Source: Bacillota bacterium
GTDB lineage: Bacteria; Bacillota; UBA4882; UBA10575
DNA: 44,742 bases
Reading direction: 5' to 3'
Assembly (NCBI GenBank): GCA_012839115.1
Contig: DUNX01000031.1
Coordinates: 1-44,742 of the forward strand
Made by a program: the position numbers and the translations under genes. The notes beneath the pieces are model-generated. The model searched no databases. It worked only from the letters and a program-made list of their open reading frames with translations, and was not told the origin of the DNA. Positions 28,923-43,160 of the stretch are shown in pieces; within the stretch, counting starts at the first letter, position 1; every line of letters starts with the position of its first letter.

Positions 28923-29115
28923 GGTTTTTCTCCTGTGTCGTGCGGTTTTCTATCCATCCTGTATCTTTATTTTTCCCTGCTGCGGGCAGGGCCATGCAGG
29001 CAAGCAGGGGACCGGGGAGAGAACCGCGAACGGTAATAAGTAACAACAGGAGCAATGGGAGAACGGAAGAAACGGGCAGCAAGGTGAGGAACGGAAGCAA
29101 CAGGAACAACAGGAC
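28923..29115. other. Purine-rich intergenic region before the heptamer array
   Basis: It lies between divergent splB and murB. It is rich in ggaa, caac and aggaac motifs that look like decayed versions of the following 7-bp array. Open frames on both strands across it are by-products of the repeats. I could not find a clear promoter for either gene. Confidence 0.5.
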
Positions 29116-29244
29116 GAGCAACGAGCAACGAGCAACGAGCAACGAGCGACGAGCAACGAGCAACGAGTAGCGAGCGACGAGCGACGAGCAACGAGTAGCG
29201 AGTAGCGACGAGCAACGAGCAACGAGCAACGAGCAACGAGCGAC
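29116..29244. repeat. Heptanucleotide tandem array just upstream of murB
   Basis: About eighteen copies of a 7-bp unit run head to tail. GAGCAAC dominates, with GAGCGAC and GAGTAGC variants and one 3-base partial unit. Variants occur in an order that is itself partly repeated. The array ends directly before gaggtggga, the ribosome binding site of murB. A change in copy number would alter the leader but not the murB frame. Confidence 0.95.
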
Positions 29245-29257
29245 GAGGTGGGAGTTA

Positions 29258-31288: not shown

Positions 31289-32134
31289 ATGTCCAATCCG
31301 GAGCGGGGGTATAGGCTGGACCGGCTTTACCCCTGGGAGGTACAGAAGGGGCTCTCCACCCGCTTTGCCGGGCATTGGATCGAGTATTACGAAGAACTCC
31401 CTTCCACCAACCAGCGGGCGCGGGAATTGGCGGCGACAAGCCCGCCGGAGGGCCTGCTTGTTTTGGCGGAAAAGCAAACAGCCGGCCGGGGGAGGTTGGG
31501 CCGCAGCTGGTTTTCGCCGGCAGGTGCGGGGATCTGGATGACCTTACTGTTAAAGCCACCGGTCTTTCCCCCGGGAGAGTTACCCAAAGTGACGTTACTG
31601 GCGGCAGCCGCTGTGGCCAGGGCAATCAGTGCCGAGGCAGAACTGACGCCCCTGGTTAAATGGCCGAATGATCTCTATCTGGATAACCGGAAAATTGCGG
31701 GTGTTCTGGCTGAAACCGCCGGGAAGGCGGGCAGCCCATGGGAATATTTGCTCTTGGGGATCGGAATCAATGTCAATCAGGTTTCTACAGATTTTCCCGG
31801 CGATCTCCGGCAGAAGGCCGGTTCGCTCCGGCTGAGCCTGGGCGCGCCTGTGGACAGAGGGGTTCTTCTCCGGCGTTGCCTGGCGGTGCTGGAGGAAGAG
31901 TATGTTTATGCCTGTGAAAAGGGGTTTGTGCGGGCTTTGGCCTATTGCCGGCAATACTCGTTCATCCTGGGAAGGCATGTCGAGGTAAGAGACGGCGACC
32001 GGCGTTACCGGGGAAAAGCCGTGGCCATCCGGGATGACGGCCGCCTGGAACTACTGGTGGATGAAGGGGGGAAAACGGTGGGTATTGCAGCCGGGGAGGT
32101 CAGTTGTTTATCCCGCACGGGCAAAGAGGCATAG
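31289..32134 (+). CDS. birA: Biotin-protein ligase without the DNA-binding domain
   Basis: BirA activates biotin with ATP and attaches it to carboxylase carrier proteins. The catalytic domain is complete: STNQRARELA, GRGRLGRSW (biotinyl-AMP loop) at about 68-76, KWPNDLYLDNRKIAGVLAE and GIGINVNQ, then the C-terminal SH3-like domain. The N-terminus starts MSNPERGYRLDRLYPWEVQKGL. GYRL corresponds to the end of the winged-helix domain and hinge in the Bacillus enzyme, so about 60 residues of the DNA-binding domain are missing. It would then be a pure ligase without repressor function. No coding sequence for the lost part is seen upstream, where the propeller gene ends. Confidence 0.92.
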   Translation: MSNPERGYRLDRLYPWEVQKGLSTRFAGHWIEYYEELPSTNQRARELAATSPPEGLLVLAEKQTAGRGRLGRSWFSPAGAGIWMTLLLKPPVFPPGELPKVTLLAAAAVARAISAEAELTPLVKWPNDLYLDNRKIAGVLAETAGKAGSPWEYLLLGIGINVNQVSTDFPGDLRQKAGSLRLSLGAPVDRGVLLRRCLAVLEEEYVYACEKGFVRALAYCRQYSFILGRHVEVRDGDRRYRGKAVAIRDDGRLELLVDEGGKTVGIAAGEVSCLSRTGKEA

Positions 32135-32285: not shown

Positions 32286-32372
32286 TCATTTACTCCGGCG
32301 ACGAATCACAATGATGGTCTTGCCGTTTTTTTTCAGAAAACCGTTGAGAAGCCCGGCAAGTAAATGGCACAT
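32286..32372 (-). CDS. Candidate 28-residue small protein
   Basis: An ATG at 32372 on the minus strand is preceded by gaaggaggg at 6-7 bases, one of the best ribosome binding sites in the window. It opens 28 codons to TGA at 32286. The product starts MCHLLAGLLNGFLKK, an amphipathic or hydrophobic helix, and ends in the basic VIRRRSK. A TATAAT (32422-32417, minus strand) lies about 45 bases upstream, with only a weak -35. The function is unknown: a small membrane-associated peptide or a leader peptide are both possible. No database comparison was made. Confidence 0.45.
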   Translation of the reverse strand: MCHLLAGLLNGFLKKNGKTIIVIRRRSK

Positions 32373-32445
32373 CCTTATCCCTCCTTCGAAATTTTCCTTT
32401 ACAAGCAGGCTGCTTCATTATATGATCAGATCGAAAAAAAGTGCT

Positions 32446-32584: not shown

Positions 32585-32977
32585 TTGATTCCATCCGACT
32601 TGAAATATAGTAAGGAGCATAGCTGGGCGAAGGTGGAGCAAGGCCGGGTAGTGATGGGGATCACTGCTTATGCCCAAGACCGGTTGGGGGACGTGGTCTA
32701 TGTTGACCTCCCCGGCATCGGTGAAAAGGTGAAGCAAAAAACGAAAATGACGACCATTGAGTCGCTGGACAGAGAGGCGGAGATCTATGCGCCGGTTTCC
32801 GGCGAGGTGGTTGCAGTCAATGATAATCTGCAGCACAGCCCGGAACTGATCAATCAAGACCCTTATGGCAAAGGCTGGATGGTGGTGATTGAGCCTTCCG
32901 ATCCGGGAGAATTCCCGGTTTTACTCTCAGCGGATGAGTACGAGAAGTACCTCCGCGTGGAGATCCGCGGCAGGTAG
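32585..32977 (+). CDS. GcvH-like protein without the lipoyl-lysine
   Basis: The 130-residue protein aligns with glycine cleavage H protein along its whole length: KEHSWAKVE, MGITAYAQDRLGDVVYVDLP, YAPVSGEVVAVND, GWMVVIEPSD and the C-terminal LLSADEYEKYL. In GcvH the swinging arm is attached to Lys in ESVKA. Here the aligned residues are ESLDR with Asp62 (GAC), and no Lys is close by. It cannot carry lipoate in the normal way. No gcvT, gcvP or lipoate ligase genes are near; the next genes are DUF951 and ribosomal. TTG 32585 is chosen after gggggt. The role is unknown. Confidence 0.88.
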   Translation: MIPSDLKYSKEHSWAKVEQGRVVMGITAYAQDRLGDVVYVDLPGIGEKVKQKTKMTTIESLDREAEIYAPVSGEVVAVNDNLQHSPELINQDPYGKGWMVVIEPSDPGEFPVLLSADEYEKYLRVEIRGR

Positions 32978-33060
32978 GCGACAAGTGGGAAAGCGATAGT
33001 TAAAAGACGCCGCATGCGCACGCATATGCGCGACGAAACCGCGTAACGGGGGTGTTGGCG

Positions 33061-33279
33061 ATGGCGTCAAAAAAACCGGTCAAATTTTACCTTGGGGACT
33101 GGATCGAGATGAAGAAACCCCACCCCTGCGGAGGAAGAGAATGGGAGGTTATGAGGGTGGGAATGGATTTCCGCCTGAAATGTTTAACCTGCGGGCGGAT
33201 GATTTTGATTCCCCGGACAAAGCTGGAGAAAGGTTTCAAAAAAATTATCAAAAGTGACTTTTCCGAAGCCCTGGAATGA
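33061..33279 (+). CDS. DUF951 family protein
   Basis: The 72-residue product belongs to DUF951, a small conserved family of Bacillota. KFYLGDWIEMKKPHPCGGREWEV is its signature, followed by a second Cys pair, CLTCGR. With the HPCGG Cys these suggest a zinc-binding knuckle. The function is unknown. DUF951 genes are commonly found just before rpsF, as here. ATG 33061 follows gggggtg. The rpsF promoter lies directly after its stop. An alternating GC tract with the palindrome gcatatgc (about 33006-33035) precedes it. Confidence 0.85.
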   Translation: MASKKPVKFYLGDWIEMKKPHPCGGREWEVMRVGMDFRLKCLTCGRMILIPRTKLEKGFKKIIKSDFSEALE

Positions 33280-33312: not shown

Positions 33313-33380
33313 ATGTCATGTACTTCCCTGCTCCGGTTAGGCGCCGGGGCCATTTGTCCACAGGGAGGAGGTGTCAGCGG

Positions 33381-33668
33381 ATGACAGCTTATGAAGTGAT
33401 GGTTATCTTCAAACCGCAGATGGAAGAGGAAGCCTTGGCGAACGCCGTCAGCCGGGTCGAAGAAACGATTAAGAACATCAAAGGCGAAATCACCCAGAGC
33501 GAACACTGGGGAAAACGCCGGTTGGCCTTCGAGATTGCGGGGTTCACCGAAGGCTATTATCTACTGTTACAGACTAAGCTGCCCAAAACCGAGGTTCAGG
33601 AGTTGGATAGGGTTTTAAAGATCTCCGATGAAGTCATCCGTCACATGATCGTGAAGCTCGACACCTAA
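33381..33668 (+). CDS. rpsF: 30S ribosomal protein S6
   Basis: S6 binds S18 and 16S rRNA in the platform of the small subunit. The sequence TAYEVMVIFKPQM at the start and WGKRRLAFEIAGFTEGYYLLLQ in the middle are typical, and the 95-residue length is normal. ATG 33381 is fixed by agggaggaggtg upstream. The frame extends to 33318, but the transcript from the 33307 promoter barely covers that part. The classic operon rpsF-ssb-rpsR follows. Confidence 0.97.
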   Translation: MTAYEVMVIFKPQMEEEALANAVSRVEETIKNIKGEITQSEHWGKRRLAFEIAGFTEGYYLLLQTKLPKTEVQELDRVLKISDEVIRHMIVKLDT

Positions 33669-41876: not shown

Positions 41877-43160
41877 ATGAGTATCCGTGTTATTGAAGAT
41901 AAATGTATCGGTTGCCGGCTTTGCGTTGCCGTTTGCCCTTTGGGGGCGATCACCATTGTGGAGAAGAAAGCCCGGATTGACCTGGATAAATGTAACCTTT
42001 GCGGCGTCTGCGTCTCCGAGTGTGAGAAGTTTGAGGCCATTGAGATTATTCGGCATGCCGAGCATGCCGAGCATGCCGAGCATGCCGAGCATGCCGAGCA
42101 TGCCGGGCATGCCGAGCATGCCGGGCATGCCGGGGAGAAAGAGGCGGCCGGGGATAAGGAAGGTTACCAAGGGGTCTGGGTCTTTGCCGAGCAGAAAGAG
42201 GGTACAGTGGCCGGGGTAACCCTGGAACTGCTTGGTGAAGGAAGAAAGTTGGCCGATAAGTTGGGAACAGTGCTCAGTGCAGTTTTACTCGGTAACAGCA
42301 TGGAACAGGCGGCGCAGGAATTGATCGCCTATGGGGCGGACCGGGTTTACCTGGCCGACTCCCCGCAACTGGCGGATTTTTTAGAGGATCCCTACGCCGA
42401 AGTGTTGACCGAATTATGCCGGGAATACAAACCCGCCATATTGCTGCTGGGGGCGACGACGATCGGGCGTTCACTGGCGCCGAAGGTGGCAGCCCGCCTG
42501 CGGACAGGGCTCACCGCCGACTGTACGGGTCTGGCCATCGACGGGGAAACAAAGAACCTTTTGCAAACCAGGCCGGCTTTTGGCGGTAATCTGATGGCAA
42601 CGATCCTTTGTCCCAACCACCGCCCGCAGATGGCGACGGTCCGGCCGCGGGTCTTCCCACCGGCCAAGCGGGATGAAAACCGCACCGGCGAGGTGGTCAG
42701 GTACGATTACAGTACCCGCCGTTTGTTGCAGCGTGCGGAATTGCTGGAGGTCATAAAAGCGGCGGGAACCACGATCAATCTGGCGGAGGCGAATATCATT
42801 GTCGCCGGTGGGCGGGGGCTTTGTGACCAGAAGAATTTTGCCCTCGTCGAGGAGCTGGCGGAAGTGTTAGGCGGTGCGGTCGGGGCCTCCCGGGCGGTGG
42901 TTGATGCCGGCTGGATCCCCTATGCGCACCAAGTAGGGCAGACCGGAAAGACCGTTTGTCCCAAAATCTATATTGCCTGCGGGATTCACGGCGCCGTTCA
43001 GCATCTGGTCGGGATGCAGTCTTCAGAATTGATCATCGCGATCAATAAAAACCCGGAAGCCCCCATCTTCAATGTGGCGGATTACGGGATTGTCGGTGAT
43101 GTGCTGGAAGTGATTCCGGCTTTGCTCAAGGAAATCAAGAAGGCAAGAGGAGAAGCGTAA
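41877..43160 (+). CDS. etfA: Electron transfer flavoprotein alpha subunit with 2x[4Fe-4S] domain and His-Ala repeats
   Basis: EtfA binds the electron-carrying FAD. This form has an N-terminal ferredoxin domain with two cluster motifs (Cys10, 13, 16, 20 and Cys39, 42, 45, 49), an arrangement known from anaerobic ETFs. Between it and the normal EtfA part lies a tract of nine HAE/HAG triplets (residues 60-86, 42054-42134). The EtfA body then runs from YQGVWVFAEQ, with the C-terminal FAD-binding segment containing VGQTGKTVCPKIYIACGIHGAVQH and SSELIIAINKNPEAPIFNVADYGIVGD. Length is 427 residues. ATG 41877 is preceded by gggggccgg, a modest signal. Confidence 0.96.
   Translation: MSIRVIEDKCIGCRLCVAVCPLGAITIVEKKARIDLDKCNLCGVCVSECEKFEAIEIIRHAEHAEHAEHAEHAEHAGHAEHAGHAGEKEAAGDKEGYQGVWVFAEQKEGTVAGVTLELLGEGRKLADKLGTVLSAVLLGNSMEQAAQELIAYGADRVYLADSPQLADFLEDPYAEVLTELCREYKPAILLLGATTIGRSLAPKVAARLRTGLTADCTGLAIDGETKNLLQTRPAFGGNLMATILCPNHRPQMATVRPRVFPPAKRDENRTGEVVRYDYSTRRLLQRAELLEVIKAAGTTINLAEANIIVAGGRGLCDQKNFALVEELAEVLGGAVGASRAVVDAGWIPYAHQVGQTGKTVCPKIYIACGIHGAVQHLVGMQSSELIIAINKNPEAPIFNVADYGIVGDVLEVIPALLKEIKKARGEA
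42054..42134. repeat. Nine 9-bp repeats coding for His-Ala-Glu/Gly in etfA
   Basis: The unit catgccgag (variant catgccggg) is repeated nine times in frame. Each junction makes the palindrome gcatgc. The order of the third residue is E,E,E,E,E,G,E,G,G. Confidence 0.97.

Follow-up and report, generated by a model that had tools for sequence, protein, structure and literature searches.

Introduction

The H-protein of the glycine cleavage system (GcvH) is usually regarded as a lipoate carrier. Its relative GcvH-L keeps the lipoyl-lysine and is lipoylated and then modified by SirTM. GcvH-L is encoded in SirTM macrodomain operons of Streptococcus and Staphylococcus and, like the protein described below, stands alone without glycine cleavage (PMC4518038; PDB 5a35). 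LbpA of the sHdr sulfur-oxidation system is likewise a protein of the GcvH fold outside glycine cleavage; it is defined by the conserved lysine together with two conserved cysteines and strictly retains the lipoyl-lysine; it also has a ligase of its own (PMC6067878). Two NCBI models, TIGR03077 (not_gcvH) and NF045810 (GcvH_rel_desulf), describe further GcvH relatives outside the glycine cleavage system. Work on mouse GCSH implies functions beyond glycine cleavage (PMC7868403), but this evidence is confounded by lipoate relay. In the open-access literature we found no report of a GcvH that is retained without the lysine and the lipoate machinery.

The gene studied here lies in a stretch of 44,742 nucleotides (the window) from a Bacillota genome assembly of 2.35 Mb in 148 contigs with a completeness of 97% (G000, genus g1). 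A sequence-only reading of the window had described a GcvH homologue with aspartate in place of the lipoylated lysine. We compared the gene and its surroundings within a sample of 29 genomes of the same class, mostly draft assemblies, and with GcvH loci outside the class.

Results

An H-protein without the lipoyl-lysine

The gene (32585..32977, plus strand) encodes a protein of 130 aa that matches the Pfam family GCV_H (PF01597) with 136 bits and TIGR00527/NF002270 with 150–151 bits, which is above the cut-off for true gcvH. Scores against the models of GcvH relatives remain far lower, with 69 bits for TIGR03077 (cut-off 144) and 48 bits for NF045810 (cut-off 150). The H-protein of T. thermophilus (1onl) is matched in sequence with E = 4e-35 and is also the best PDB match of an AlphaFold2 model (pLDDT 92.8) with a TM score of 0.94, while the E. 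coli H-protein reaches 0.92–0.93. The hybrid barrel-sandwich fold is therefore predicted to be intact. GcvH-L (5a35) shows 21% identity in a structure alignment. The sequence contains no cysteine, so that it has neither the lysine nor the two cysteines by which LbpA is defined. Translation probably starts at TTG 32585 rather than at the alternative TTG 32570, because a stop codon closes the frame of the upstream TTG in G002; the resulting N-terminus MIPSDLKYS is in line with MVPSNLKY of relatives.

In alignments to 1onl, the E. coli protein and the homologues of the class, the lipoyl-lysine position (K64 in E. coli, K63 in the pea H-protein) is occupied by the aspartate codon GAC at 32768..32770. 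As the earlier reading had stated, the motif ESVKA is changed to ESLDR; the former lipoyl hairpin, SVKAA at residues 62–66 of E. coli, reads SLDRE here (32762..32776). The six residues before and the six after the aspartate include no lysine. The two other sampled genomes of the genus, G001 and G002, whose proteins are 76–88% identical, also carry aspartate with the codon GAC and show neither AAA nor AAG at this site. Since all three sampled genomes of genus g1 share the aspartate, an error in the reads or the assembly was ruled out.

Loss of glycine cleavage and of lipoate supply

No glycine cleavage genes neighbor the gene, as had been noted from the sequence, and neither GcvP (PF02347) nor GcvT (PF01571) was detected anywhere in G000, G001 or G002. 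The search for lipoate supply comprised LipA and the LplA/LipM/LipB-type domain. Neither LipA (TIGR00510) above the cut-off nor the LplA/LipM/LipB-type domain (PF21948) was found in the three genomes. The LipA matches in G001 and G002 are partial only and far below the cut-off (E of about 1e-3, 18–19 bits compared to 310), and for this reason they are probably other radical SAM proteins. Since the lysine is missing and no LplA/LipM-type ligase or LipA was detected in G000, lipoate cannot be attached to the protein, in agreement with the initial interpretation. A second GcvH of the lysine type, for which a search had been proposed, does not occur in G000 (97% complete), where the window gene is the only copy.

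We also considered a function as octanoyl/lipoyl relay hub as for the Bacillus type of GcvH. The possible acceptor, the 2-oxoacid dehydrogenase E2 (PF00198), is absent from genus g1 and from nearly the whole class, which rules out a relay role.

Distribution of the lysine in the class

GcvH is present in all 29 genomes of the class, including nine without GcvP and GcvT. The lysine is replaced in seven of them: by Asp in G000, G001 and G002 (g1) as well as G023 (g13), by Asn in G005 (g4) and by Thr in G019 and G026 (g10). None of these seven genomes contains GcvP, GcvT, LipA or LplA above the cut-off, whereas GcvT is present in 20 of the 22 genomes that keep the lysine. Absence of lysine and absence of GcvT coincide with a Fisher p of 2e-5 when genomes are counted irrespective of phylogeny. 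Among the genomes with lysine, G016 has lost GcvP and GcvT and kept LipA and LplA, and G027 has lost all four. G024 and G025 (91 and 88% complete) keep the cleavage system without a LipA match over the cut-off.

In a FastTree tree of eight concatenated syntenic proteins g4 groups with g1 (support 0.68), g10 with g16 (0.93), and g13 is basal in its own family (0.91–0.95). From these placements the lysine appears to have been lost at least three times, in g1 with g4, in g10 and in g13, and these losses look independent; glycine cleavage itself was probably lost four times in the class. Since a single base change separates the Asn codon of g4 from the Asp codon of g1, a substitution path from Lys via Asn to Asp is plausible for these two genera. 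A widespread family of GcvH proteins without lysine was not apparent, with none among about 120 or more GcvH proteins outside the class, a sample of 79 loci plus phylum samples that is biased to close matches.

Selection and residue changes

Within genus g1 the dN/dS of gcvH ranges between 0.10 and 0.22 depending on the alignment, compared to 0.06–0.14 for pairs of lysine-type gcvH genes and 0.05–0.28 for neighboring genes. These values indicate purifying selection on the gene and no decay within this genus. When lineages are compared, gcvH diverged faster than its neighbors after glycine cleavage was lost: GcvH of G000 and G005 is 49% identical as compared to 72% for the neighboring genes, whereas the lysine-type pair G003–G009 of comparable depth shows 77% and 78%. 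This fits either a shift in constraint followed by renewed stability or a partial relaxation, so that part of the change may reflect relaxation. The gene is intact in eight of the nine genomes of the class without glycine cleavage; gcvH of G019 is shifted out of frame by a single-base deletion, which is an error or else a mutation that arose recently.

Across the 19 class genomes with glycine cleavage, 37 positions of GcvH are invariant. In the eight intact proteins from genomes without the system 24 of them are unchanged and 13 are changed, the latter including Glu14 and all five hairpin positions 62–66 (p = 0.003 for the hairpin), each of which is altered in some of these genomes. Glu12 and Glu14 hold the aminomethyl-lipoate arm in the E. 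coli H-protein (PMC7733448). Position 14 is Glu in all 19 genomes with glycine cleavage and Ser, Val, Leu or Gln in seven of the eight without. The window protein has Ser (AGC, 32621..32623, plus strand) like the rest of g1, while Val is found in g4 and G027, Leu in G016 and Gln in g13; g10 retains Glu. As a clean marker of the loss of glycine cleavage Glu14 is weakened by the fact that some lysine-type GcvH proteins of other classes vary here as well, and it therefore serves as supporting evidence and not as a marker alone. The earlier statement that the whole fold and the flanking motifs are kept thus stands for the fold, but not for all functional motifs, with Glu14 and the entire lipoyl hairpin altered.

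Genomic context

The conserved upstream neighbor is birA, encoding a biotin-protein ligase (31289..32134, plus strand; PF03099, TIGR00121, synteny). Directly downstream of gcvH follow a DUF951 gene (33052..33279, plus strand; PF06107, 99 bits) and rpsF for ribosomal protein S6 (33318..33668, plus strand; PF01250), the first gene of a conserved rpsF-ssb-rpsR-rplI-lon-dnaB block. In lysine-type relatives of the family the order runs from birA through gcvH, ligase (PF21948), DUF951 and rpsF to dnaB. The lysine-bearing gcvH of related genomes occupies the same place as the window gene, which is thus alike to GcvH of glycine cleavage in sequence, fold and genomic descent; it differs by the missing lipoyl-lysine, the altered hairpin and Glu14 and the absence of P- and T-protein, LipA and ligase. 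In g1, g4, g10 and g13, which lack the ligase gene here, gcvH is directly followed by DUF951. The ligase is also absent from this position in G018, where it is located elsewhere, and in G027. A position before DUF951-rpsF, raised previously as a possible peculiarity of GcvH proteins without lysine, is therefore not specific to them and does not tie the loss of lysine exclusively to this block, since lysine-bearing relatives lie there too, with the ligase gene in between.

A consensus scan upstream of gcvH yielded one sigma-70-like promoter candidate (32398..32426, plus strand), with 1.3 expected by chance. BirA of the window comprises 281 aa and begins at the catalytic domain, whereas BirA of G003, G005 and G010 comprises 323–332 aa with an N-terminal helix-turn-helix-like stretch; in the window the biotin repressor domain seems to have been lost. 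Several relatives carry a bioY-like gene and MCE transport genes (mlaD, mlaF and mlaE-like; L114:5502-9133) between birA and gcvH with the adjoining micro-ORF described below. The window has none of these genes at this position.

A divergent micro-ORF

Comparing the intergenic region upstream of gcvH with that of relatives exposed an unannotated micro-ORF of 28 aa, MCHLLAGLLNGFLKKNGKTIIVIRRRSK, at 32286..32372 on the minus strand, divergent from gcvH. It is preceded by a strong Shine-Dalgarno-like stretch, GAAGGAGGG (32379..32387, minus strand), which is of the AGGAGG type in most relatives. The family consensus is LLxxxLNPxLKKxGKTMILIxRRxK. In one genus group 285 third-position substitutions stand against 56 at second positions, and because changes concentrate at third codon positions the micro-ORF is very probably translated. 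It occurs as a single copy in 28 of the 29 class genomes and always adjoins gcvH or, in G017, gcvT of a divergent gcvT-gcvH-gcvPA-gcvPB operon; in the remaining genome, G026, the contig breaks off immediately before gcvH. Within the class it stays beside gcvH even when the rest of the operon is gone.

In a sample of 299 genomes of the phylum matches at E < 1e-3 were found in about 32 genomes outside the class. In about 23 of these the micro-ORF is no more than about 5 kb away from gcvT or a true gcvH and is always divergent. It is near a short GcvH-like gene in G059 and G100 and elsewhere in about six genomes, and the contig of G094 ends. The micro-ORF is not covered by any Pfam or NCBIfam family, and no literature on a gcv-linked microprotein was found among open-access papers. 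That the micro-ORF is merely a glycine riboswitch read in antisense was ruled out: no glycine riboswitch (RF00504) was found in the window, in relatives it is separated from the micro-ORF by about 150 bp or more, and in other classes the micro-ORF does not overlap with it.

A separate observation concerns a GcvH-like protein of only 98 aa in family f36 (L275:4347-4643), which has IHSHKGPISLP at the site with lysine present. Its gene adjoins a proton pyrophosphatase-like gene, and gcvT is not nearby.

Discussion

Taken together, the window gene is probably the ordinary gcvH of the class after loss of its pathway, kept by a second role that does not depend on lipoate. We consider this the best reading because the protein cannot be lipoylated, the glycine cleavage system and a second GcvH are absent, and purifying selection acts on the gene. 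Recruitment of the fold for another role, as proposed from the sequence, is supported in outline, though not as a separate family; a function as scaffold or regulator is a guess. Unlike the LbpA lineage, this lineage has abandoned lipoate. Glycine cleavage may have been lost first, a state shown by G016, and lipoate assembly second, as in G027, before the useless lysine would have been replaced. The H-protein would already have served as a lipoate-independent protein-binding platform before these losses, and this role alone would now preserve its fold. Since the micro-ORF persists with gcvH, the first candidate partner would be the 28-aa microprotein encoded divergently upstream; a partnership with the lysine-less GcvH is speculative. 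It is possible, but rather doubtful, that the two share an ancient lipoate-independent function and that the pair alone is left after glycine cleavage and lipoate were lost repeatedly. The micro-ORF may also be maintained for a reason unrelated to gcvH; in a few families outside the class it is found apart from gcv genes.

Alternative explanations account for less of the data. A functionless gcvH might survive only by its position between birA and the rpsF operon and decay slowly, for which the deletion in G019 and the accelerated divergence of H-proteins without glycine cleavage could be taken as signs. We regard this as unlikely, given the low dN/dS in g1, close to that of lysine-type relatives, the intact genes in all but one of the genomes concerned, the 24 unchanged invariant residues and retention by several independent lineages. 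A cis effect would also be compatible with the close synteny to DUF951-rpsF throughout most of the class and with the conserved divergent upstream region. In that case DUF951-rpsF or the micro-ORF would depend on the transcript or promoter region of gcvH for expression, and the protein itself would not matter. Such a role would not need the selection on amino acids seen in dN/dS and invariant residues, and we judge it improbable.

The replacing residue itself might be functional, for instance as a new modification site of a carrier or enzyme. Aspartate is fixed in g1 and independently in g13, and Asn occurs in the probable sister genus g4, but three different residues across four lineages, one lineage that lacks glycine cleavage and keeps the lysine, and surrounding residues that vary as in a free site make this very unlikely. 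Least credible is lipoylation or acylation of another lysine by salvage from neighboring organisms. GcvH of G005 has a lysine one residue past the site and LipS1/LipS2 systems exist in other organisms (PMC10332631); against this, genus g1 has no lysine near the site, the genomes without the lysine lack the LplA/LipM/LipB-type domain, and with the P, T and E2 proteins absent there are no users of lipoate.

The retention of GcvH after loss of its pathway in these anaerobic bacteria points to an unrecognized second job of the protein. Lineages without the pathway, lipoate assembly and the lysine in which GcvH is still selected represent natural experiments that isolate a lipoate-independent function. 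In addition, a conserved microprotein family beside gcv operons escapes annotation models.

Further observations in the window

Short repeats, with the minus-strand reading SLLVARCSLLVARRSLLVA..., are located at 28950-29250 just before murB. They resemble a simple array of repeats and may confuse the start of murB. An electron-transfer flavoprotein alpha-like protein (41877-43160, plus strand) has an N-terminal ferredoxin-like domain and contains a run of His-Ala-Glu/Gly repeats, HAEHAEHAEHAEHAGHAEHAGHAG.
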